Assembly (NCBI GenBank): GCA_003251535.1
Contig: QKFD01000083.1
Coordinates: forward strand, 1-39,262
Reading direction: 5' to 3'
Origin: Chromatiales bacterium
GTDB taxonomy: Bacteria > Pseudomonadota > Gammaproteobacteria > Thiohalomonadales > Thiohalomonadaceae
DNA: 39,262 nucleotides
The notes under the pieces were generated by a model. That model was not told the origin of the DNA and did no database searches. It saw nothing but the letters and a program-made list of their open reading frames with translations. The first letter of the stretch is position 1; the number at the start of each line of letters is the position of its first letter. The position numbers and the translations under genes are program-made. This document shows positions 1 through 10,862 of this stretch, piece by piece.

Positions 1-739
1 TGATGAGGATCACCTCTGGGTCCCACAGCAGCACCTGCTCGAAGTTGAGGGGGGCGAAGTCGCGCAGTTCGCCGGCTACGTTGTGGCCGCCGGCGCGTTG
101 GATGGCGCGATCGAAGGGGGTGCCGCCTACCATCGGTCGCAACGGCTCCAGGCTCATCAGGTAGAGTACCCGCGGGCGGTGCGATGGGTTGCCGAGGGCC
201 TGCTCTAGCCGCTCTCCCTCTGTCTCGAAGCGGGCGATCAGCTGCTCGGCCCGCGCCTGCTTACCGGTGACGGCACCGGCCAGGCGGGCCCAGGTGAAGA
301 AGTCCTCCTCGCCGTGGACGCCCGTGATCCCCACCACCTTGAGACCGGCCTGCTCGATGGGTTCATAGAGGCCGGCGCCGATCTGGATGGTCTGAAATAC
401 CAGCTCGGGCTGTGTTGCCAGCAGTGCCTCTACGTTGGGGGCGAACCAGCCGTTGCTGGTGGCGTCGGGGAGGGTGCCGGCCCGTGGGTAGAGTTTGCCC
501 AGTAGCCCCTGACGGATGAGGCGGGTGGCGAATGCGCTGCTCGCCACCAGACGGGCGTCGCTATCGTCTACGGTGAGGAGGCTGCGTACCGCTGGTGGCA
601 GGTAGGCGATGCGTTGGGGCGGTGCGGCCAGCTCCAGGGTGACGCCGCGCTGATCGGTCAGCTCCAGGGTGTGGCCGGCGGGGGTGGCCAGTAGGCCGGC
701 CAAGAGCAGGGGGATGGGGCTGGGTCGATGGGGGGCCAT
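1..739 (-). CDS. Periplasmic iron/cobalamin-type (BtuF/FhuD-like) substrate-binding protein, C-terminus outside window
   Basis: Reading the minus strand from the ATG at 739 gives 246 residues without a stop before the window edge, so the gene is partial. The first 22 or so residues are a short hydrophobic signal segment (PIPLLLAGLLATPAG), followed by LELTDQRGVTLELAAPPQRIAYL, the usual opening of periplasmic-binding proteins of class III ABC importers, and later by the PRVLYLMS and GGTPFDRAIQRAGG segments typical of the second lobe. The start lies 15 nt after the ATPase stop codon, with an ACGGAG ribosome binding site. It is the last visible gene of the methanobactin-type operon and should deliver substrate to the FecCD-type permease. 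Its ligand is unknown; by context it could be a metal-methanobactin complex, while heme, cobalamin and siderophores are the family's usual ligands. Confidence 0.9.
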   Translation of the reverse strand, partial: MAPHRPSPIPLLLAGLLATPAGHTLELTDQRGVTLELAAPPQRIAYLPPAVRSLLTVDDSDARLVASSAFATRLIRQGLLGKLYPRAGTLPDATSNGWFAPNVEALLATQPELVFQTIQIGAGLYEPIEQAGLKVVGITGVHGEEDFFTWARLAGAVTGKQARAEQLIARFETEGERLEQALGNPSHRPRVLYLMSLEPLRPMVGGTPFDRAIQRAGGHNVAGELRDFAPLNFEQVLLWDPEVILI

Positions 740-754
740 GGTGTGCTCCGTAGG

Positions 755-1537
755 TTAGGCGGTCGGCGGGCGCCGACGGCGCTCGAAGAGGGGGATGAAG
801 CTCTGCTGGTGGGTGCCTGCGTGGTTTACCTCCACCCGGTGGAGATCGATGCCATAGAGCCGGCTCAGGCTCTCCTCCTGCATCACCGTCGCGGTCGGCC
901 CCACCAGGGGGGGCTGATCGGGCAGTAGCAGCATCGCCCGATCGGCCACTGCCAGGGCGTGCTGCGGCTGGTGGGTGGTGAAGAGCACCGTGAGGCCGCG
1001 CTCATCTGCCAGCCGGCCGATGAGCGCCAGGATGGCCGCCTGGTTGCGCAGGTCGAGCGCCGCCGCCGGCTCGTCGAGGATCAGGATCTCCCCCTCCGAG
1101 GCGAGGGCGCGGGCCAGCATCACCATCTGCCGTTGACCGCCGGAGAGTTGGGTCACCGGCCGCTCTGCCAACCCCTCCAACCCCAACTCGGCGAGGGCGG
1201 CGCGGGCGATGGCGTGGTCCTGCCGCCCCGGTGTCTGCCACAGTCCCAGGTGGCGGGCCCGCCCCATCAGCACCATCTCCAACACGCTGTAGGGGAAGGG
1301 GGGGGCGAAGAGCTGGGGCACAAAGGCGAGCGGGCCGTGGCAGGTCAGCTGCCCTTCGCGCGGGGTGAGGAGGCCGAGCAGCAGGTTGATCAGGGTGGTC
1401 TTGCCGCGACCGTTGGGGCCGAGCACCGCCAGCACCTCGCCCCGGCGCAGTTCGGCGTCGATGTGGCGCACTATCCACTCCCCCGGTCGGTACCAGTGGC
1501 CGATCCCCTCCAGCCGCAGGGCGCTGGTCTCGCTCAC
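755..1537 (-). CDS. ABC transporter ATP-binding protein of FecE/BtuD/HmuV type
   Basis: This 260-residue protein is a complete ATPase of the iron-chelate/cobalamin importer group. Walker A is GPNGRGKTT at residues 40-48 (Arg sits where Ala or Ser is more usual, but the G-x4-GK-T pattern is intact), the signature LSGGQRQ is at 131-137, and Walker B ILILDEP is at 151-157, followed by the D-loop ALD and a switch His in TTHQP. The ATG overlaps the stop of the upstream permease by 4 nt, so the two are translationally coupled. It powers import through the FecCD permease. Substrate specificity cannot be read from the ATPase; heme, cobalamin and siderophore systems all use this type. Confidence 0.95.
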   Translation of the reverse strand: MSETSALRLEGIGHWYRPGEWIVRHIDAELRRGEVLAVLGPNGRGKTTLINLLLGLLTPREGQLTCHGPLAFVPQLFAPPFPYSVLEMVLMGRARHLGLWQTPGRQDHAIARAALAELGLEGLAERPVTQLSGGQRQMVMLARALASEGEILILDEPAAALDLRNQAAILALIGRLADERGLTVLFTTHQPQHALAVADRAMLLLPDQPPLVGPTATVMQEESLSRLYGIDLHRVEVNHAGTHQQSFIPLFERRRRPPTA

Positions 1538-2580
1538 TCCGCACCCCCCAGGCCGCCCTCGCGGCGGCGCCAGAGCAGGTAGGCGAAGAGCGGGGTGCCC
1601 ACCAGGGCGGCGAGCAGCCCCACCGGCAGCTCTTGGGCGGTGAAGCCGCGCGCCAGGCCGTCGATGGCGAGCATGAAGAGCCCCCCCAATAGGGCCGAGA
1701 TGGGGAGCAGGGTGCGGTGGTCGGGGCCGGTGAGGATGCGCGCCAGGTGGGGGATCACCAGCCCCACCCAGCCGATGGTGCCGGAGACCGCCACCTGGGC
1801 CGCCACCATCAGGGTGACCAGGCCGAGGGCGGTCCAGCGGGTGCGCTCCACCGCCACCCCCAGGCCGCGGGCGTCGTGGTCGCCCAGGGAGAGGAGGTTG
1901 AGGCGCCAGCGCATCCGGTGGAGTAACAACCCCGCCAGCAGTAGCGGCGGGGCCAGTAGCGCCAGCCGCCGGTAGTCGAGCTGGGAGAAGCTGCCCATCA
2001 GCCAGTAGACGATGCCGGGTAGCTGCGCCTCCGGATCGGCGGCAAAGACCACCAGCCCCACCAGGGCCGAACAGAAGGTGCCGGTCACCAACCCGGCCAG
2101 CACCAGGGTGGTGATGCGGCTGGCGTGGCTGGCCCGACTCATGGCGAAGACCGCCAGCAGCGCCAGCAGGCCGGCGCCGAAGGCGGAGCCCACCACCACC
2201 ACGGAGGGGAGGGCGAACAGCAGCGCCACCACCCCGCCGAAGGAGGCGCCGCTGGAGATGCCGACGATGTGGGCGTCCACCAGCGGGTTGCGGAACAGCC
2301 CCTGGAGGGTGGCCCCCGCCATCGCCAGTGCCATCCCCACCAGCACGGCGCCCACCACCCGCGGCAGTCGCAGTTGTAGCACCACCAGCCGCTCCACTTC
2401 GCTGCCGACTGGGGTGGTGGTGGGTAGCGGTAGGAGTTGATCGCCCAGGATCGCCGCCACGCTGCTAAACGGCACCGGGTAGCGCCCCATGCCGAGGGAG
2501 GCGATGACGAGTAGCACCAGCAGTAGCCCGAGGAGGGCGTACCAGAGGCGGGGGGCGTGGCTGAAGTTGGGGATGGGCAT
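1534..2580 (-). CDS. FecCD-family ABC importer permease
   Basis: The protein is 348 residues from the ATG at 2580 (MPIPNFSH). A TTG start at 2637 would add 19 residues but overlaps the receptor gene and adds a low-complexity Pro/Thr stretch, so it is less likely. The sequence has the repeated hydrophobic segments of a ten-helix BtuC/FhuB/FecCD permease and its hallmark motifs: LRLPRVVGAVLVGMALAMAG near residue 80, ATLQGLFRNPLVDAHIVGISSGA, and GTIGWVGLVIPHLARIL in the C-terminal half, the coupling region that contacts the ATPase. It lies directly after the TonB receptor and overlaps the ATPase gene by 4 nt. It should carry the metal-loaded ligand across the inner membrane. Confidence 0.93.
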   Translation of the reverse strand: MPIPNFSHAPRLWYALLGLLLVLLVIASLGMGRYPVPFSSVAAILGDQLLPLPTTTPVGSEVERLVVLQLRLPRVVGAVLVGMALAMAGATLQGLFRNPLVDAHIVGISSGASFGGVVALLFALPSVVVVGSAFGAGLLALLAVFAMSRASHASRITTLVLAGLVTGTFCSALVGLVVFAADPEAQLPGIVYWLMGSFSQLDYRRLALLAPPLLLAGLLLHRMRWRLNLLSLGDHDARGLGVAVERTRWTALGLVTLMVAAQVAVSGTIGWVGLVIPHLARILTGPDHRTLLPISALLGGLFMLAIDGLARGFTAQELPVGLLAALVGTPLFAYLLWRRREGGLGGAE

Positions 2581-2596
2581 CGTGGTCGTGGGGGTG

Positions 2597-2620
2597 GGTG
2601 GCGGCCCTCCGGCCGCCACC
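2597..2620 (-). repeat. Perfect 10-bp inverted repeat between receptor and permease genes
   Basis: The arms ggtggcggcc (2597-2606) and ggccgccacc (2611-2620) are perfectly complementary around a 4-nt loop. The element sits between the receptor stop codon and the preferred permease start. No T tract follows on the minus strand, so it is not a classical terminator; it may stabilise the upstream message or set a lower expression level for the importer genes. Confidence 0.6.
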
Positions 2621-2624
2621 TGCT

Positions 2625-4637
2625 TTAGAAGCGCCAACTGAGGGTCGCCTTGACGCTACGCCCCTTCTCATAGGTGAGGGCGTAGGCGTTGGACGACTGG
2701 TAGCTGGCGTAGCGCTCGTCGGTGAGGTTCTCCACGCCGAGGTCGGCGCGCAGCGATTCGCTGGGGCTCCAGCTCAGGAAGAGGTCATGCCGCACCCAGC
2801 TCTCCCGCTGCCGCTCGATGGTGTCGTCGTAGTCCTGCGCGGCGGTGGCGGTGCCGCTCCAGAGTAGCGAGAGGCGGTCGCCGTCGAACCAGTAGCGGCC
2901 CTTGAGGTTGAGCTGATCCGGCGGTGAGAAGAGATCTTCACCGCTGTCGTCATCCTCCACCCGTAGTCGGCTGTAGGTAGCACTCAGGTCCCACTGGCCG
3001 CGGCTATAGCTCCCCTCCAGCTCGATGCCGCGCCGCTTGGCGTTGCTGACGTTCTGGTACTGCAAGATGGGGCGGGTGCCGAGCACCGGGTGGGTGTAGC
3101 TGCCGATCACCTTGCCCTCGATCAGATCCTCCACCCGCTCGTCGTAGAGGGTGATGGCGAAGCCGGCGCGGTCGTCGCTGGCGAACAGCCCCTCCCGCTG
3201 GTAGTGGGCCCCTAGCTCCAGGGTGCGGGCGGTCTCCGGATCGAGATCGGGGTTGGCGGCGAAGTTGGCGTAGTACTGGTTGCCGCTCAGGTTCTGGTAC
3301 ATCTCATTCAGCGAGGGGGCGCGGAACGCCTCGCCGTAGCTGGCGTAGAGGCCGAGGTGCGGTGTCGCCTGCCAGTGCAGCGCCAGTTTGGGGGAGAGGT
3401 GGGCGTCGTCGCTATCGGCCTCGGTGCCGCTCTCTTTGTGGGCGGTGTAGCGGTCCCAGCGGGCGCTGGGGATGAGTCGCCAGTGATCGCCGAGGGCGAT
3501 CTCATCCTGGAGGAAGAGGCCGTAGACGGTCTGGCGACCATCCGGCAGCACCCCGTTGGGGGCGCCGGCGGAGCGCGCCTGCTGTTCGTCGCGGTAGAGA
3601 TCACCACCGTAGCTGAGCCGGTGGCTGCCGAGCCGCAGGGTCTGTTGCAGGCCGCCGCCCACGGTGTCGGTCTCGCTGCTGGTGGCCGGCAGTGAGGCGC
3701 TGGGGTTGGGGTCCGCCTGGCGTTCGGTGACGGTGTGGTAGAGGTGGGCGGTGACCGCCCGCTCACCGTTGGCGCCGAGCAGGGTCATGTGGGCGACATC
3801 CTCGTTCTGGCGCGTGGTGTGCTCCTGCTCCATGGGGAAGTCGTTGTTGCCCTGCGGGTTGTTGGGGCGCAGCGCCGTCTCTTGGAAGTACTGGTGGGAG
3901 AGTTCAAAGCGCAGCCGGTCGCTGGCCTGGATGCCGATCTTGGCCAACACGCTATCGCTATCGCCGTCGTTGGGCTCTAGGGTGCCGCCGCCCCCTTGAT
4001 CGATCTCACCCCACTCCCGCCGGGTCGCCGCCAGTAGCCCATCCACCGCCCCACTGCGGCCAAATAGGCGGAAGTGGAGGTGGCTCGACTCATCGGCGCT
4101 CTCGCCACCGCCCCGCACCTCGCCGCCGAAGCCATCCCCGCTCGGTAGCAGATCGGTGGCGGAGAGGGTGCGGAAGGCCATCACCCCGCCCAGGCCGCCG
4201 CTGCCGTAGAGCGAGGAGGCGGAGCCGCGCACCACCTCCACCCGAGAGATCAGATCGGGATCGATGGCCAGGGGGGAGAGGATGCCGCTGCCGCTCTGGT
4301 CGTTCCGGCGGGCGTCGTCCACCAGCAGGATGATGTGGTTACCGTAGTGGCCGCGGATGGTGGGGATCTGGCCGACGGCGCGCGGGCCGCCGCCAAAATC
4401 GACCCCGGGTAGCTCCTCTAGCACCTCGGAGACCGTGCTGGCCTGGCGCTCGTCGATGTCGTCGCGGGTCACCTCGCTCACCGCCGCCGGCAGGTCACCC
4501 AGTTTGTTCTCGGTGCGGGTGGCGGTGATGACGATGGTGCCTAGATCCTCTGCGGTGGCCGCCAGTGGTGCCAGTAGGGCAAGCGCGATGGCGGCGGTGA
4601 GTGGCCGCCGACGCAGAGGGGAGCGGTACAGGATCAT
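2625..4637 (-). CDS. mbnT: TonB-dependent outer membrane receptor, probable metal-methanobactin uptake (MbnT-like role)
   Basis: The protein is 670 residues: a signal peptide (about 1-29, cut after ATA), a TonB-box-like TIVITATR (34-41), a plug domain (about 45-160, with TIRGHYGN and VEVVRGSASSLYGSGGLGG) and a 22-strand-type barrel ending in a terminal Phe (LSWRF). There is no extra N-terminal signalling domain, so it is not a FecA-type transducer. The barrel carries FRAP (438-441) and NPDL (462-465) boxes as in heme/hemoglobin receptors, but no His lies between them, where characterised heme receptors such as HemR have a conserved heme-binding His. Its ATG overlaps the MATE stop by 4 nt. By position it corresponds to the receptor of methanobactin operons; the functional name is inferred from context, and a heme or siderophore role is not excluded. 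Confidence 0.85.
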   Translation of the reverse strand: MILYRSPLRRRPLTAAIALALLAPLAATAEDLGTIVITATRTENKLGDLPAAVSEVTRDDIDERQASTVSEVLEELPGVDFGGGPRAVGQIPTIRGHYGNHIILLVDDARRNDQSGSGILSPLAIDPDLISRVEVVRGSASSLYGSGGLGGVMAFRTLSATDLLPSGDGFGGEVRGGGESADESSHLHFRLFGRSGAVDGLLAATRREWGEIDQGGGGTLEPNDGDSDSVLAKIGIQASDRLRFELSHQYFQETALRPNNPQGNNDFPMEQEHTTRQNEDVAHMTLLGANGERAVTAHLYHTVTERQADPNPSASLPATSSETDTVGGGLQQTLRLGSHRLSYGGDLYRDEQQARSAGAPNGVLPDGRQTVYGLFLQDEIALGDHWRLIPSARWDRYTAHKESGTEADSDDAHLSPKLALHWQATPHLGLYASYGEAFRAPSLNEMYQNLSGNQYYANFAANPDLDPETARTLELGAHYQREGLFASDDRAGFAITLYDERVEDLIEGKVIGSYTHPVLGTRPILQYQNVSNAKRRGIELEGSYSRGQWDLSATYSRLRVEDDDSGEDLFSPPDQLNLKGRYWFDGDRLSLLWSGTATAAQDYDDTIERQRESWVRHDLFLSWSPSESLRADLGVENLTDERYASYQSSNAYALTYEKGRSVKATLSWRF

Positions 4638-5956
4638 GGAGTGGGCCTCTTATAGTTATGGTCACAGGTGAGCGGGGTGGTTGAACCCGTGCCGGCGGGG
4701 GCCAGCAGGGGGCTAAGGCGCCACCAGAGCAGCGGTAGGGCGCACAGCTCGGGCAGCAGGATGTAGCTAAAGGTGAGGGCCGGCTGGTTGAGCTGGAGGC
4801 CGAGCGCCATCAGCGGCAGGCCGATCCCCCAGAGCACGGCGCTATCCACCAGCGCCACGCTGGCAAAGCCGCCTCCCGCCTGGAGGGCGCCGCGCTGGAG
4901 GGCGTTGATGAAGCGCACCGGCAGGGTGAGGGCCATGAGCGCCACCGCAGCGCCCCACCAGGGGCCGGAGAGGCCGTAGAGCCGCTGGCCGAGGGGTTGG
5001 CCGATGGCCAACAGCAGCGCGGCCAGCAGTAGCAGCGGCGGCAGGCCGTAGCGCAGCAGCTGGCGCAGTAGCGGGGTGATCTCCGTTGGCGGGACGCCGC
5101 CGAGGCGGAAGGCGAGGAAGCGGAACAGCGCCAGCGCCGGCATGAAGAGCAGCAGCGCCAGGGCGCTGCCGGCGGAGTAGGCGGCCAGTCGATCGAGATC
5201 GAGCGGGGCGATGAGGGTGGTGGCAAACAGCACCATCCCCAGCAGGGCAAATAGCTGGTTGGCCAGCACCCGCTTCGCCTCCCAGCCGCACTGGCCGAGG
5301 AAGCCGCGCAGCCACTGGGTGGTGGGGCGGCGTAGCGGTGTGGCGAGGTGGCGGTGCAGGCGGGCGAGGGACCAGAGGCTGCCGGCCAACAGGACACCGA
5401 AGGTGGCGAGAAAGGCGCCGGCAAACCCCAGCCCGAGGGCGAAGATAAAGAGGGCATCGAGCAGGGCATTGAGCCCCACCTCAGTCAACTTCCAGCGCAG
5501 CACTGCCACCCCATCGCCGAGGGCGTGCAGCGCCATCACCGCCACCGCGGCGAGAAAACGGAACGGCGTGGCCAGGGCGTACCAGAACAGCGCCTCGGCG
5601 GCGAGTTCGGCCACCGTTGGATCTGCGGTGACCCAGTGGGCGAGTTGCGGGTAGAGCAGGAGACCGACGGCGGTAACCAGCAGCCCGAGCAGCAGCGCCA
5701 CCGCCAGGGCGCCGTGGGCCGCCTCGGCGGCACGCCCCTCACGGGCGGCGCCGGCCACCACCACCGAGGTGACCGAGCCGAGCGCCATCATCAACACCGC
5801 ATCCAGCAGCGCCACCCGCAGCGGCACGCCGTAGGCGGCGGTCGCCTCGGTGCCGAGGGTGGCGACCATCACCAGATCGGTCTGGAGGATCAGCGGCGGG
5901 GCGGCGAAGCTGAGGAGGATCGGCAGATAGCCGCGGCGCAGATCCTGCAATTTCAT
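4634..5956 (-). CDS. mbnM: MATE-family exporter, probable methanobactin export protein (MbnM-like)
   Basis: This is a 440-residue polytopic membrane protein with about twelve hydrophobic segments in two halves. It opens with YLPILLSFAAPPLILQTDLV and continues with a MATE-like first helix pair (TLGTEATAAYGVPLR). MATE transporters are cation-coupled exporters in the inner membrane, and methanobactin operons use one to secrete the mature peptide. The ATG overlaps the mbnC stop codon by 4 nt and its stop overlaps the receptor start by 4 nt, tying export to biosynthesis and uptake. The family assignment is good; the methanobactin substrate is inferred from the operon. Confidence 0.85.
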   Translation of the reverse strand: MKLQDLRRGYLPILLSFAAPPLILQTDLVMVATLGTEATAAYGVPLRVALLDAVLMMALGSVTSVVVAGAAREGRAAEAAHGALAVALLLGLLVTAVGLLLYPQLAHWVTADPTVAELAAEALFWYALATPFRFLAAVAVMALHALGDGVAVLRWKLTEVGLNALLDALFIFALGLGFAGAFLATFGVLLAGSLWSLARLHRHLATPLRRPTTQWLRGFLGQCGWEAKRVLANQLFALLGMVLFATTLIAPLDLDRLAAYSAGSALALLLFMPALALFRFLAFRLGGVPPTEITPLLRQLLRYGLPPLLLLAALLLAIGQPLGQRLYGLSGPWWGAAVALMALTLPVRFINALQRGALQAGGGFASVALVDSAVLWGIGLPLMALGLQLNQPALTFSYILLPELCALPLLWWRLSPLLAPAGTGSTTPLTCDHNYKRPTP

Positions 5957-6534
5957 TGGGGGATGGGCGACCAGCCGGGGAAGTTATCCAGCTCAAAGCC
6001 CGGCAGGGTGAACCAGCCGAACCCCCCCTCTGGTGGCGGCAGCGGCTCCTCTAGGGAGAGGCACTCCACCTCGCGGCCACCCGTCACGGTGTGGCACTTC
6101 CACGCCACCACCAGCTCCGGGAGTTCGGCGCTGCCGAGGGCGATGCCGCCGTTGGGTCCACGGTCACCCATCGCCCAGCGCGCCGCGGAGGCGGCCATCA
6201 GCGAAAGGGTCAGCTGTGGGCTGAGGCGGTCGGCAAAGGGGGACTGTTGCAGCCAGCGGTGGACCCAGAGGTAGTAGGTCCAGTTCATGGAGAGCTGGCG
6301 CTCGGCCGCCCAGGCCATGAAGGGGCGGAAGATGGCCAGCCCATCTGGGCCACTCAGGCTGAGCAGTTCGGGGCAGATGTCGAATAGGGTGTGCCAGTAG
6401 GCGCGCAGGCTGGTGTCGAGACGGACAAAGGCGCGCGAGTCACGGGCAAACTCCCCTTGGCGGGCCGGCACCATTAGGGCGTCCAGCAGATCGCTCTCCA
6501 GCAGGGCGGTGCGGATCTCAGGCGATGCGGGCAT
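5953..6534 (-). CDS. mbnC: Methanobactin biosynthesis partner protein MbnC
   Basis: The protein has 193 residues from the ATG at 6534 (MPASPEIRTALLE). An upstream in-frame extension would run antiphase through mbnB and is rich in Pro/Ser/Thr, so it is a shadow. The length matches MbnC, the non-enzymatic partner that forms a heterodimer with MbnB and helps bind the precursor leader. The sequence is acidic and aromatic-rich in the middle (SMNWTYYLWVHRWLQQ) and ends in a WFTLPGFELDNFPGW segment; I see no catalytic motif. It overlaps the end of mbnB by 17 nt and the MATE gene by 4 nt. The call relies on size, position after an MbnB and general sequence character. Confidence 0.85.
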   Translation of the reverse strand: MPASPEIRTALLESDLLDALMVPARQGEFARDSRAFVRLDTSLRAYWHTLFDICPELLSLSGPDGLAIFRPFMAWAAERQLSMNWTYYLWVHRWLQQSPFADRLSPQLTLSLMAASAARWAMGDRGPNGGIALGSAELPELVVAWKCHTVTGGREVECLSLEEPLPPPEGGFGWFTLPGFELDNFPGWSPIPQ

Positions 6535-7339
6535 GGCGCAGCTCCGGGGTGGGGGTGAATATCTGCCGCAGGGCGCTGAGGTCCTGGACGATGGCGTCGT
6601 ACTCGATCTGGTCGTCGCGCTCGTAGGTGAGGGTGGCACCGGGGCGGTCGAAGCGGTCGCGGTAGCGCTCCAGGAAGGCGAGGGTGTCGGCCCCGAGGGC
6701 GCGGTCGTGGGTATCGAGGGTGATGGTGGGGGCGAGGATCGAGGCGTTATAGCCCCCCACATGGAAGTGGTTGGTGGCGTCGATCACCGGCTCCCACTCC
6801 GTTAGATCGACCCCGCAGTTGCGTTGGCCGCAGACCGCGTTGGAGGCGTCAAACAGCACCCCGGCGCCGGTGTCGCGGGCGATCTGCTGGAAAAACCAGG
6901 GGGCGTCGCGGCCGTTGTCCATGATGGAGGGGTAGTTCTCCAGCAGTAGCCGTTGGCCAAGCTGCTCCTGCCACCACGCCACTCGGGCGCGCATCGCCTC
7001 GTAGTCGCGCCGGTACTCCGGCTCCGCCAGGTGGTAGAGCTGGCGCCCCTCGTGGGTGAAACGGGCGACGTGATCGGAGACGTAGATGGGGCGGAGTACC
7101 TCGATGTAGCGGCGTAGGCGGGCCGCCATCTCCACTAGGGTCGCCTCGTCGTTCTCCAGGAATTTGGAGAACATGATGTGGAAGCCCACCGGGCAGTCAA
7201 AGGCGGCCGCCAGCTCAGCGGGCGGCACCTGGAGAAAGTTGTCGATCAGCAGCTCGCAGTAGTCGATGTGTCGCTCTGCGATCAGCTGTTGGACCAGTTC
7301 GAGGGTGGGTCCCAGGGTGAAGTTAAAACCAATGCGCAT
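6518..7339 (-). CDS. mbnB: MbnB, MNIO (DUF692) multinuclear iron oxidase that modifies the MbnA core
   Basis: The protein is 273 residues from the ATG at 7339 (MRIGFNFTLG), which has a GGGAGG ribosome binding site. MbnB enzymes use a two- or three-iron centre and O2 to turn core Cys residues into oxazolone-thioamide groups that bind copper. The expected metal ligands are visible: His54 (GFHIMFSK), His90 (VSDH), Glu134 (LLENYPSIMD), Asp164 (LFDASNAVC), His191/His193 (NHFH), Asp209 and His211 (LDTHDR), and Glu240 (TYERD). The opening IGFNFTL and the FDASNA and THDR motifs are characteristic of the methanobactin branch rather than of DUF692 enzymes from bufferin clusters. It follows the mbnA precursor after a 199-nt spacer and overlaps mbnC. 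Confidence 0.95.
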   Translation of the reverse strand: MRIGFNFTLGPTLELVQQLIAERHIDYCELLIDNFLQVPPAELAAAFDCPVGFHIMFSKFLENDEATLVEMAARLRRYIEVLRPIYVSDHVARFTHEGRQLYHLAEPEYRRDYEAMRARVAWWQEQLGQRLLLENYPSIMDNGRDAPWFFQQIARDTGAGVLFDASNAVCGQRNCGVDLTEWEPVIDATNHFHVGGYNASILAPTITLDTHDRALGADTLAFLERYRDRFDRPGATLTYERDDQIEYDAIVQDLSALRQIFTPTPELRHARIA

Positions 7340-7425
7340 CGCCTGCCTCCCTTCAGCCACCGCCGGGGGGTGGAGTGGAAAACGAGAAGTGGGGTGGGGG
7401 TCAGTCCGGCCCCGAGATCAGGGGT

Positions 7426-7453
7426 GTCCCCCGATCGGCGCCAATCGGGGGAC
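7426..7453 (-). promoter_or_regulatory. Intercistronic hairpin between mbnA and mbnB
   Basis: The arms gtcccccgat (7426-7435) and atcgggggac (7444-7453) are a perfect 10-bp inverted repeat with an 8-nt loop. A further 12-nt palindrome, aggggcgcccct, lies at 7515-7526. Both are in the 199-nt spacer between precursor and enzyme genes. Neither is followed by a T run, so partial attenuation or 3'-end protection of a short mbnA message is more likely than full termination. This layout is common where a peptide substrate is needed in excess over its enzymes. Confidence 0.6.
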
Positions 7454-7538
7454 GGTGGGGCGCACCTCTAATGCCGGTGTCTCCCAGGGCGGGAGTGGGG
7501 GACCGGCACGCTCAAGGGGCGCCCCTGGGGGCGAGTGA

Positions 7539-7634
7539 TCAGTTCACACCCAGCGGGGCGCAGCAGGAGCCGCAGCACCAGCCGGCACGACCAGGGACAG
7601 CGATAGAGCGCTTGGCATTGACTTTGATCTTCAT
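7539..7634 (-). CDS. mbnA: Methanobactin-type precursor peptide MbnA (31 aa)
   Basis: The ATG at 7634 is preceded by AGGAGAG with 7-8 nt spacing, and a TGA closes the frame after 31 codons. The leader (residues 1-18) is basic (MKIKVNAKRS) and ends in PGRAG; the probable core is WCCGSCCAPLGVN. Compared with my recollection of the Methylosinus trichosporium OB3b precursor, GRA at 15-17 and CGSC at 21-24 fall at identical positions. The Cys residues are 20, 21, 24 and 25. The i/i+4 spacing of Cys21 and Cys25 resembles the ring-forming pair in Methylocystis-type cores (RCASTC), leaving Cys20 and Cys24 as extra thiols that could form a disulfide. The gene lies directly upstream of mbnB. The family assignment rests on this leader/core match plus the operon; the actual modification sites are unknown. 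Confidence 0.88.
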   Translation of the reverse strand: MKIKVNAKRSIAVPGRAGWCCGSCCAPLGVN

Positions 7635-7666
7635 CCGTATCTCTCCTGATTATGGGTTTTTTCCAA

Positions 7667-7687
7667 GCCACGGTGACGGACCGTGGC
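7667..7687 (-). promoter_or_regulatory. 8-bp inverted repeat in the mbnA leader region
   Basis: The arms gccacggt (7667-7674) and accgtggc (7680-7687) are perfectly complementary with a 5-nt loop, 33 nt upstream of the mbnA start. On the minus strand the repeat is followed by an A tract, not a T tract, so it is not a terminator for emrB. It could be an operator or a 5' stem-loop in the mbn transcript. Confidence 0.5.
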
Positions 7688-7698
7688 GGGGCCCCTGT

Positions 7699-7715
7699 CT
7701 CAAGAAGCGTGCCAG
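7699..7715 (-). promoter_or_regulatory. Possible sigma-54-like promoter for the mbn operon
   Basis: On the minus strand the region reads TGGCACG, four bases, then TTGA. This matches the sigma-54 consensus TGGCACGnnnnTTGC except for the last base, which belongs to the important -12 dinucleotide. A start 12 nt further on would fall at about 7688, immediately before the leader stem-loop. I saw no convincing Fur box or sigma-70 hexamer pair in the same 205-nt gap. This is a single motif match and is tentative. Confidence 0.3.
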
Positions 7716-7839
7716 GCGCTGGAGGCGCTATTTACTGGGGTTGCGAATAGATCGGGGCGGGGTGGGGTGTGGCAAATCGCAGGCGGGGCGCGGCAAATGG
7801 CCCGGTGGGTGGGGGGGGCGATGGTGGTGGCGGGCGCCC

Positions 7840-9378
7840 CTACTCCGGGGCTGCGGCCACCTCCTCGCTCGGTCGGTGTGCGGTGGGGGCGCGCAGCAGT
7901 AGCAGTAGGGGGATGGCGGCGAGGGTGATCCACATCATGAAGCGGAACTCCTGTAGGTAGGCGAGCAGACTCGCTTGACGCTCCACGACACTGTTGAGGG
8001 TCACGAGGCCCGCTGTGGAGTGGATGTTGTAGATCCCCTGTTCCACCGCCTGACGCATGGCAAAACGCAGGGGGGTGAGGTAGCCGGCAAAGGCGGCATG
8101 GTTGGCCTGGATATTGTGGGCCAGCCCGGTGATGACCCAGGAGATGCCGATGCTGCTGCCGAGGTTGCGCATCAGGCTGTAGAGGGCGGTGCCCTCGTTG
8201 CGCAGCTGGGGTGGCAGGGTGGCGAAGCTGACGGTGGAGAGGGGGACAAAGAGAAAGCCGAGCCCCAACCCCTGGAGGATGCCGGTGTGGATGATCGTCA
8301 GGCCAGGGGTCTGATCGGTGAAGCCGCTCATCTGCCAGAGGGAGAGGGTGGTCAGGAGTAGGCCGAACAAGATCTGGTAGCGGGGATCGATCCGCCCCGC
8401 CAACCGACCAACGGTCAGCATAGCGAGCATGGTGCCGATGCCGCGGGGGGCCAGCAGCAGACCCACATCGATCACCGGATAGCCCATCAGCTGCTGCATG
8501 AATGGTGGTAGCAGCGCCATGGTGGCCAGCAGGATGACGCCGACCACAAAGATGAGCAGCAGCCCGACACTGAAGTTGCGATCACGGAAGAGCGCCGGCT
8601 CCAGAAACGGGCGCGGGTGGGTGGCCATGTGGACGAGAAATAGATAGAGGCCGAGGAGCGCCAACACCCCCTCCATAACCACCTCGCCGCTGGTGAACCA
8701 GTCGAGGGACTGGCCGCGGTCGAGCATCATCTGTAGGGCGCCGATGGCGATGCTGAGGAGGCTAAAACCCAGTAGGTCAAAACGGCGCTGCTGGGTGGGG
8801 CTCTCATGCAGATAGGTGGTCAGGCCAAACCAGGTGAGTAGGCCGATGGGGAGGTTGATGTAGAAGACCCAGCGCCAGTTGTAGTACTCCGTTAACCAGC
8901 CACCGAGGGAGGGGCCGAGGATGGGTCCCACCATCACCCCCATGCCCCACAGTGCCATGGCGCGGCCGTGTTGTTGGCGCGGATAGCTATCCAGCAGCAC
9001 CGCCTGGGAGAGGGGGACCAGACTGGCGCCAAACACCCCTTGCAGCAGACGGAACAGGACCATCTGGTTCAGGCTCTGGGCGGCGCCGCAGAGTATCGAG
9101 GCGAGGGTGAAGCCGACCACGGCGGCGATGAAGAGCCGCTTGCGGCCGAGACGCGCCGAGAGAAAGCCGGTGAGCGGCATGGCGATGGCCGCGGCGACGA
9201 TATAGGAAGTGAGCACCCAGGCGATCTGGTCCTGGGTGGCGGCCATGCTCCCCTGCATGTGGGGCAGGGCGACGTTGGCGATGGTGGTGTCGATCGCCTG
9301 CATGATGGTCGCCAGCATCACCGAGAGGGTGAGCATGAGGCGCCGGCTATCGGCAGGTGGAGGTGGTGGGTGTGGCAT
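7840..9378 (-). CDS. emrB: EmrB-type MFS multidrug efflux transporter (DHA2 family)
   Basis: This 512-residue membrane protein has the fourteen-helix layout of DHA2 drug/H+ antiporters. Visible hallmarks are MQAIDTTIANVALPHMQGSM in the first helix region, the motif-A-like GFLSARLGRKRLF, and the motif-C-like GVMVGPILGPSLGGWL. It starts 6 nt after emrA ends. With EmrA and an outer membrane TolC-like channel (none in the window) it should form a tripartite pump exporting hydrophobic toxic compounds, under control of the MarR regulator at the head of the operon. The C-terminus is short and hydrophilic. Confidence 0.93.
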   Translation of the reverse strand: MPHPPPPPADSRRLMLTLSVMLATIMQAIDTTIANVALPHMQGSMAATQDQIAWVLTSYIVAAAIAMPLTGFLSARLGRKRLFIAAVVGFTLASILCGAAQSLNQMVLFRLLQGVFGASLVPLSQAVLLDSYPRQQHGRAMALWGMGVMVGPILGPSLGGWLTEYYNWRWVFYINLPIGLLTWFGLTTYLHESPTQQRRFDLLGFSLLSIAIGALQMMLDRGQSLDWFTSGEVVMEGVLALLGLYLFLVHMATHPRPFLEPALFRDRNFSVGLLLIFVVGVILLATMALLPPFMQQLMGYPVIDVGLLLAPRGIGTMLAMLTVGRLAGRIDPRYQILFGLLLTTLSLWQMSGFTDQTPGLTIIHTGILQGLGLGFLFVPLSTVSFATLPPQLRNEGTALYSLMRNLGSSIGISWVITGLAHNIQANHAAFAGYLTPLRFAMRQAVEQGIYNIHSTAGLVTLNSVVERQASLLAYLQEFRFMMWITLAAIPLLLLLRAPTAHRPSEEVAAAPE

Positions 9379-9384
9379 GGCGGA

Positions 9385-10425
9385 TCAGAGCCAACTTCCC
9401 AGTCGGTGGTGCCGCTGGCCGGTGTCGATCTTCACCTCGGCACTGAAGCCGGCGCGCAGTCGCGGCAGGTCCGGGGTGAGGCGGAGGCGGATCCGTACCG
9501 GCAGCCGCTGGGCGATCTTCACCCAGTTACCGGTGGCGTTCTGCGCCGGGATGACCGAGAACTCGGCGCCGGTGGCCGGGCTTAGGCTCTCCACCTCGCC
9601 GCTGAACTGCACCCCTGGGTAGGTATCCACGGCGACCGCCACTCTCTGACCCGGTTGGACGTAGGTGAGATCGGTCTCTTGATAGTTGGCCTCCACCCAT
9701 AGGTCATCGTCGGCGACTAGGGCCAGCGCCGTGACCCCCGCGGCTAAATATTGGCCCGGTTGGGGCGGTTGGCTCACCGCGCCTGAGCGTGGTGCGCGGA
9801 TCTCGGTGCGTTGCAGATCCAGCTCTGCCTGCGCCCGCTCCGCCTCCGCTGAGAGGTAGGCGGGGTAGTGCTCCAGGGGGGCACTGGCACTACCTCCGAG
9901 GTTGGCGGCAATGCGCTGGAGATCCTCTTTGAGGCTGGCCAGCTGGTGGGCGGTCACCTCGGTCTCTTGGCGCGCCTGATCGATGGCGGCGCTGGAGACA
10001 AACTGTTTGGCCAGCAGATCCGCTTGGCGCCGCTGCTCCTTTTTGGCGTAGTCGAGGCGGACCTCGGTGAGGGCGATCTCCGCCTGCTTTTCGCGGTAGC
10101 TGGCCTGTAGGGCGGCAAACTCGGTCTTCGCCTGCTCCAGGTGGGCGGTGGCCCGATCCAGTGCCACCTGGAATGGCGCGGTGTCGAGCTTGAACAGTAT
10201 TTGACCGGCGCTCACCTGCTGATTCTCTTGGACCATCACCTGCGCCACGCTGCCGGCCAGTTGGGTGCTGATGGGGATGGTGGTGGCCTTGATGTAGGCG
10301 TTGTCGGTGGTGACGTAGCGGCCACCCAACAGATAGAGGGTGGCGGCCAGCACTATGGCCAACAGGGGCACCACCAACAGCAGGAGGCGCCGCAGGCGAG
10401 GGGTGGGCGATGGGGTGGGATCCAT
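9385..10425 (-). CDS. emrA: EmrA/HlyD-type membrane fusion protein
   Basis: The protein is 346 residues from the ATG at 10425; a TTG at 10434 overlapping the marR stop is an alternative start. It has one N-terminal transmembrane helix (LLLLVVPLLAIVLAATLYLL), then GGRYVTTDNAYIKATTIPISTQLAG, the standard HlyD/EmrA barrel entry, a lipoyl half-motif, a coiled-coil hairpin (about residues 85-200, rich in Ala, Gln, Glu and Lys) and the returning lipoyl and beta-barrel segments (EIRAPRSGAVSQ, LWVEANYQETDLTYVQPGQ). It bridges the EmrB pump to an outer membrane channel. Gene order marR-emrA-emrB matches the classical mprA-emrAB operon. Confidence 0.93.
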   Translation of the reverse strand: MDPTPSPTPRLRRLLLLVVPLLAIVLAATLYLLGGRYVTTDNAYIKATTIPISTQLAGSVAQVMVQENQQVSAGQILFKLDTAPFQVALDRATAHLEQAKTEFAALQASYREKQAEIALTEVRLDYAKKEQRRQADLLAKQFVSSAAIDQARQETEVTAHQLASLKEDLQRIAANLGGSASAPLEHYPAYLSAEAERAQAELDLQRTEIRAPRSGAVSQPPQPGQYLAAGVTALALVADDDLWVEANYQETDLTYVQPGQRVAVAVDTYPGVQFSGEVESLSPATGAEFSVIPAQNATGNWVKIAQRLPVRIRLRLTPDLPRLRAGFSAEVKIDTGQRHHRLGSWL

Positions 10426-10430
10426 GGCTG

Positions 10431-10862
10431 TCAACGACCTGTGAGGTTATCGCGCATCGCCTTGAGGACGGCGCGGAGGGTGTCGGCCTGCTGCGGATCG
10501 ACCCCCCGCAGGGCCACGGCGTAGTTGCGCTGGGCCGCCTGGCGGATCGCCTTCAGCTGTGGGGCGGCGGCGCGGGTGAGGTGGAGCTGGTAGGCGCGGC
10601 GGTCGTGGGGATCGGGCCGTCGCTCCACTAGGCCGCGCCCCTCCAGCTGATCGATCAGGCGGGTCAAGGTGATAGGTTGTATCTCCAGCAGATCGGCCAG
10701 TTCGCCCTGCCGAATCCCCTCGCTACGCGCCACATGGGCCAACGCCCGCGCTTGCGCCAGGGTGAGGCTGCCGCTCGCTTCCAACTGCTGCTGAAAGGCC
10801 CTGCGCATCAGACGGGAGACGTCAGCCAGTAGGAAACCGAGGGGGTCGTCTTGGGTCGGCAT
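10431..10862 (-). CDS. MarR-family transcriptional regulator of the emrAB operon
   Basis: This 143-residue protein has the MarR winged helix-turn-helix: LTLAQARALAHVARSEGIRQGELADLLEIQPITLTRLIDQLEGRGLVERRPDPHDRRAYQLHLT. The recognition helix (PITLTRLIDQLE) and the wing with the DxRxxxxxLT signature are both present. It is the first gene of the operon, reading into emrA with the stop at 10431-10433. A palindrome overlapping its -10 region suggests repression of its own operon, relieved by efflux substrates, as for MprA/EmrR in Escherichia coli. The inducer is unknown. Confidence 0.93.
   Translation of the reverse strand: MPTQDDPLGFLLADVSRLMRRAFQQQLEASGSLTLAQARALAHVARSEGIRQGELADLLEIQPITLTRLIDQLEGRGLVERRPDPHDRRAYQLHLTRAAAPQLKAIRQAAQRNYAVALRGVDPQQADTLRAVLKAMRDNLTGR

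Follow-up and report, generated by a model that had tools for sequence, protein, structure and literature searches.

FecCD-type ABC importer genes linked to a Group III-like methanobactin operon in a Chromatiales bacterium

Group III methanobactin operons have been described in Azospirillum, Pseudomonas and others, and in operons of Methylocystis and Azospirillum the receptor genes are followed downstream by genes for periplasmic binding proteins (PMC3621798); in the portion of that paper available to us, the terms "ABC transporter" and "permease" have 0 occurrences. In methanotrophs, MbnE, a relative of OppA/AppA, is proposed to bind copper-methanobactin in the periplasm, and the inner-membrane step for this complex was described as unknown in the accessible sections of a 2020 review (PMC7558416). 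Here we describe a contig of a Chromatiales bacterium (QKFD01000083.1), analysed over its entire length (positions 1-39262, hereafter the window), in which eight genes on the minus strand, from 7634 to 2, encode in this order the precursor MbnA, MbnB, MbnC, the exporter MbnM, a TonB-dependent receptor, and the FecCD permease, ATPase and binding protein of an ATP-binding cassette (ABC) importer. The locus is probably a Group III-like methanobactin operon with a dedicated inner-membrane importer, a reading based on gene content and order, protein families, active-site conservation, the grouping of the receptor, and the recurrence of the receptor-permease-ATPase row in a second genome, that of Plasticicumulans acidivorans. 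By its gene content it is a new variant among operons of the Group III kind. No report of a methanobactin operon with FecCD genes was found in the searched open-access literature, as far as its text was accessible.

Like Group III operons, the window combines a MbnA carrying two cysteine doublets with MbnB, MbnC, MbnM and a related TonB-dependent receptor. MbnA, encoded directly upstream of mbnB by a MbnA-type precursor gene, has 31 residues (MKIKVNAKRSIAVPGRAGWCCGSCCAPLGVN), and its core WCCGSCCAPLGVN (also given as CCGSCCAPLGVN), with the doublets arranged as CCGSCC, is close to the pattern CC[GA]SCCAPVGVN found in 9 of 14 relatives. Because MbnB scores 444 bits on the methanobactin model TIGR04159 and 73 on the bufferin BufB model (cut-off 310), it is of the methanobactin kind, and a bufferin-type identity was rejected; on the HvfB model it reaches 32 bits (cut-off 360). 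MbnC likewise exceeds its own cut-off (291 over 185), which removes the concern, raised in an earlier note on this stretch, that both proteins might score no better than bufferin-type DUF692 enzymes. MbnB aligns without gaps to PDB 7fc0 across 261 residues, and MbnC matches chain F of the same entry (E 1.3e-59). Entries 7dz9 and 7fc0 appear to be the Vibrio and Rugamonas enzymes of PMC8888699, 7fc0 being the Group III one. The accessible part of that paper names the iron-site residues of MbnB and its catalytic Asp; in the alignment all ten active-site positions are kept (H54, H90, E134, D164, N167, H193, D209, H211, E240 and D242). It also places the modifications of the Rugamonas peptide on Cys21 and Cys25, and MbnA, counted from its start, has Cys21 and Cys25 at the same positions. 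These sequence comparisons support a true methanobactin operon, in which MbnA would be modified and its product would bind copper.

Within the row, mbnB and mbnC overlap by 17 nt, mbnC and mbnM by 4 nt, and mbnM and the receptor gene by 4 nt. A gap of 44 nt separates the receptor gene from the ATG start of the permease gene (an alternative TTG start at 2637 overlaps the receptor gene), the permease and ATPase genes overlap by 4 nt, and 15 nt lie before the binding protein gene, which runs off the contig end. The earlier note had named these eight genes, with overlaps of 4-17 nt and the two gaps, and the coordinates bear it out throughout (Table 1). It described the operon as complete, which is right as far as the mbn genes go, whereas the ABC system as sequenced ends in a truncated binding protein.

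Table 1 Features of the mbn operon and its surroundings in the window
Feature	Position	Strand	Evidence or description
mbnA, methanobactin precursor, 31 aa	7539..7634	-	TIGR04071 49.8 bits (cut-off 24); PF25751 40.9 (cut-off 27)
mbnB, multinuclear iron enzyme	6518..7339	-	TIGR04159 444.2 bits (cut-off 325)
mbnC, MbnB partner	5953..6534	-	TIGR04160 290.8 bits (cut-off 185)
mbnM, MATE exporter	4634..5956	-	NF045578 456 bits (cut-off 285)
TonB-dependent receptor, mbnT-like	2625..4637	-	TIGR01785 440.5 bits (cut-off 316.85)
FecCD-type permease	1534..2580	-	PF01032 274 bits
ABC ATPase	755..1537	-	PF00005 92 bits; Walker A GPNGRGKT, signature LSGGQ
Periplasmic binding protein, 246 aa present, cut at contig end	2..739	-	PF01497 54.5 bits (cut-off 27.5)
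Sigma-54-like match TGGCACGCTTCTTGAG	7699..7714	-	starts 80 nt before mbnA; 10/12 to consensus
Stem-loop between mbnA and mbnB	7426..7453	-	12-bp stem, predicted fold
Perfect 10-bp hairpin, receptor-permease gap	2597..2620	-	fold -24.5 kcal/mol, z -2.62

The window was compared with 17 other mbn loci, 14 from genomes and 3 from plasmids, three of which (L007, L011 and L012) are short, so that genes beyond their ends would be missed. Permease and ATPase genes like those of the window stand directly behind the receptor gene in one of the 17, that of P. acidivorans, which has the same order from mbnA, mbnB, mbnC and mbnM through the receptor and permease to the ATPase. The permeases of the two operons are 67.5% identical over 314 residues and the ATPases 59% over 249, and the window binding protein is 56% identical over 222 residues to a Plasticicumulans protein of 360 residues. 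MbnB identity between the two is 64%, and the receptor-permease-ATPase link has been kept across that divergence. FecCD permease trees of 28 and 29 sequences, from which duplicates were dropped, place the two permeases in a clade of their own (100/99); the receptors, 51% identical, pair at 100/99 and the MbnM proteins at 100/100. In trees of MbnB, MbnC and MbnM (18 rows each, midpoint roots), the window groups with nine loci sharing its core at 95/94 for MbnB, 95/93 for MbnM and only 87/83 for MbnC. The earlier note had also considered that the ABC genes might be absent from all relatives and have a separate promoter in the window; the permease and ATPase genes recur behind the receptor gene in Plasticicumulans, and a sigma-70 scan of 1-8200 found no site before the permease gene, its one site lying inside mbnB.

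A route for copper can be proposed from this gene content. MbnB and MbnC would convert MbnA cysteines, judging by position Cys21 and Cys25, into copper-binding groups; MbnM would export the modified peptide, which would bind copper outside; the TonB-dependent receptor would bring the copper-peptide complex into the periplasm, where the binding protein would take it, and the FecCD permease and ATPase would carry it into the cytoplasm. We infer that the ABC substrate would be copper-methanobactin, delivered to the cytoplasm with copper release there; transport of the intact complex is the most likely reading, and it rests on the linkage in two operons. The putative importer consists of a FecCD-type permease, an ATPase and a Peripla_BP_2 binding protein and would receive its substrate through a TonB receptor, as BtuCDF, FhuBCD, FecBCDE and HmuTUV do; it differs from them in that its genes are linked to chalkophore biosynthesis. 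Its binding protein would share with MbnE the proposed periplasmic binding of copper-methanobactin, but it is a Peripla_BP_2 protein with a permease and an ATPase adjoining. For the step by which copper-methanobactin crosses the inner membrane, these genes offer a good candidate that is specific and testable. If true, this would show how a siderophore-type importer can be attached to a chalkophore operon, and operons with MbnP and MbnH in its place would offer a natural comparison.

The window departs from the known Group III arrangement in having the receptor gene after mbnM, followed by the FecCD ABC genes, and in lacking mbnP and mbnH. The position after mbnM had been taken as the expected one, which is not the case: in eight of the nine other loci with this receptor type, all except that of Plasticicumulans, the receptor gene precedes mbnA and is separated from it by mbnP and mbnH. 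Both mbnP and mbnH are present in 11 of the 14 genome loci and 2 of the 3 plasmid loci. Neither gene was detected in the window operon, as the earlier note had said, nor in L009 (Plasticicumulans), L063, L007 and L011, with only 1.2 and 1.9 kb upstream examined in the last two. The absence extends to the genome level for MbnH, which exceeds its cut-off of 362.85 bits in six of eight mbn genomes tested, namely all six others and neither ABC-bearing genome. The best MbnH-like match reaches 241.5 bits in the window's own genome (95.6% complete) and 221 bits in that of Plasticicumulans. Within 15 kb, L063 lacks mbnP and mbnH and also has no permease of this type, which shows that an operon can be without the pair and still not carry the ABC genes. 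No role of the MbnP-MbnH pair is known in print, and the idea that MbnH helps to release copper in the periplasm is only a guess. Tentatively, and with less confidence than in the importer itself, one may imagine two alternatives, in which most methanobactin users keep the complex periplasmic with MbnP-MbnH, and a rarer lineage without the pair imports the intact complex through a FecCD system, possibly under sigma-54 control. The ABC system might instead retake methanobactin after periplasmic copper removal, or import its fragments, leaving copper outside the cytoplasm. Such recycling would agree with the place and manner of copper release being stated as unknown in the accessible sections of PMC7558416, but neither ABC-bearing genome has MbnH over the cut-off, and we consider it very improbable.

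The receptor and ABC genes could also form a heme uptake system lying behind mbnABCM by chance. The best NCBIfam model of the receptor is indeed the TonB-hemin one, TIGR01785, at 440 bits (cut-off 317), and the receptor is the sole match to this model in its own genome at E up to 1e-60. A profile of mbn receptors, run over 369 genomes of the class with at most three candidates scored per genome, gave five matches at E up to 1e-70, with the window receptor at 1009 bits and the next, in genome G221, at 415; this next receptor heads a row of receptor, binding protein, permease and ATPase genes, then an ABM-family protein, that looks like a heme locus. Against this stands a tree of ten mbn-linked receptors, including that of the window, and 15 other TIGR01785-matched receptors from four of the same genomes (only 4 of the 15 exceed the model's cut-off; the set leaves out nine mbn receptors that were second copies), in which the ten lie on one side of a branch with support of 99/100, apart from the 15; nearer non-mbn relatives may exist outside these four genomes. 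The genes of eight of the ten mbn receptors neighbour mbnP, mbnH and mbnA, and the DNA examined at these loci contains no permease of this type. Two heme-linked permeases, from Achromobacter (L098, near a hemin-type receptor) and from the heme-like locus of G221 (L127), fall in a clade that excludes the window permease. The receptor and permease trees thus weaken the heme reading, which we regard as unlikely. The solved heme receptor 9dhe has a His between its FRAP and NPNL motifs that the window receptor lacks, and the plug His of 9dhe aligns to a Gly, with His one and two residues to either side; these 9dhe-type histidines presumably bind heme. The His between FRAP and NP is absent from all ten mbn receptors but also from 14 of the 15 others, so its absence decides little between heme and non-heme.

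Several observations weigh against a dedicated copper-methanobactin importer. The linkage occurs in only two operons, which may inherit one event, and it is not general, since the other 16 of the 17 compared loci have no such permease in their examined DNA. Related permeases lie elsewhere in five of seven other mbn genomes searched (the best, at 52%, in Achromobacter on a different contig), so that the other mbn organisms may use a distant importer or none. The binding protein gene, which adjoins the ATPase gene in the window and had been counted as an operon partner, lies in Plasticicumulans about 3.4 kb off on the convergent strand, 26 nt behind an open reading frame that seems to encode a different kind of ABC ATPase. 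The Plasticicumulans MbnB joins the other eight loci at 87/81 and does not pair with the window MbnB, and the MbnC tree leaves the relation of the two unresolved; with receptor, MbnM and permease pairing but MbnB not, the trees do not establish that the operon as a whole goes back to one common origin. The hairpin between the receptor and permease genes, matched by 2 of 200 shuffles in folding energy, could lower ABC gene expression; it has no U run and was not listed by the terminator scan. Lastly, three of four permease relatives at 50-52% identity whose neighbours were read stand near nitrogenase-like proteins or modA/modC, so the permease subfamily is not copper-specific; the Achromobacter relative (52%) has none of these nearby. 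Of the earlier interpretation, the true methanobactin operon stands, with MbnB and MbnC above their cut-offs, while the receptor order does not, and the binding protein link is weaker than it had appeared.

The neighbours of these permeases raise the possibility that a different metal complex or an oxyanion, such as molybdate or an iron siderophore, is what the ABC genes import, and that they were placed here by chance or for co-regulation. Relatives in Methylosinus trichosporium OB3b, Methylocystis parvus and Rhizobium lie near nitrogenase-like proteins, modC or modA, and the Rhizobium permease, with modA adjacent, comes next in the trees. Distant PDB matches of the binding protein include HI_1472, which we take to be a molybdate-binding protein. 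These signs are offset by the receptor-permease-ATPase row kept in Plasticicumulans, by the lack of any recognised nitrogenase-like gene beside either operon (neighbours being read mostly by eye), and by the low identity of the binding proteins to those of OB3b, M. parvus and Rhizobium, at 23-25% for the window protein and 26-31% for the full Plasticicumulans one. We find a different substrate doubtful and prefer copper-methanobactin. Among the matches listed for the ABC proteins (for the ATPase, the best 25 of 194 models), no named-importer model reaches its cut-off.

On plasmids pOB3b1 of M. trichosporium OB3b and pMpar-1 of M. parvus, FecCD permease and ATPase genes whose products are 48-52% identical to those of the window lie near genes for a TonB receptor, a binding protein and a nitrogenase-component-1-like protein. 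Achromobacter veterisilvae has a single row (L052, 6618-13022) that encodes a binding protein, a permease (52%), an ATPase (50%), a distant TonB receptor and a protein without a Pfam match at E 0.001.

The operon is rare among related genomes. MbnB exceeds its cut-off in 1 of 56 relatives, the own genome only, and in 0 of 19 other genomes of the same family; MbnC does so in 1 of 369 class genomes and 1 of 398 phylum genomes, each time the genome around which the set was centred, and in 1 of 96 relatives of Plasticicumulans, Plasticicumulans itself. The class genome draws overlap and are not independent samples. Five weaker MbnC matches fall in one genus of the phylum set, and the permease has two matches at E up to 1e-70 in the 369 class genomes, its own and one at 43% identity. 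No third case of the ABC-bearing arrangement was found in these class, phylum and relatives' sets. G+C content is 69.3% in the operon versus 64.3% across 11001-39262; this difference and the rarity fit horizontal gain without proving it.

Upstream of mbnA, both ABC-bearing operons have a sigma-54-like site at a similar distance. The Plasticicumulans match, 85 nt before mbnA, also agrees at 10 of 12 positions, and the best among the 13 other mbn loci agrees at 9. The pattern TGGCACNNNNNTTG occurs twice in the window against 0.28 expected (6 of 100 shuffles reach as many) and once in the Plasticicumulans locus against 0.18 (17 of 100), and scores of at least 10 occur in 2 of 130 and 2 of 69 one-strand 300-bp tiles, respectively. 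The -12 element of the window site is TTGA, not TTGC. Each site alone is weak, and the pair at one place is suggestive. The stem-loop between mbnA and mbnB is not unusual in energy for its composition (z -1.29; z -0.73 for a longer stretch).

The mbn loci of a Cellvibrionaceae metagenome-assembled genome (L013) and of A. veterisilvae (L018) are nearly the same, with identical MbnC and MbnM, a likeness that points to recent transfer or to a mixed bin. A second MbnC-like gene, whose product is 41-42% identical to the window MbnC, lies near Pseudomonas mbn operons (L014, 3021-3506; L017, 3052-3531). The genome of the window has three more MNIO (PF05114) genes, at C31:101439-102221, C23:34623-35408 and C33:39193-39696, scoring 349, 336 and 78 bits on PF05114, on which MbnB scores 80. 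EmrB-like and EmrA-like efflux genes and a MarR regulator gene (7840-10862, minus) immediately precede the mbn operon and share its strand.

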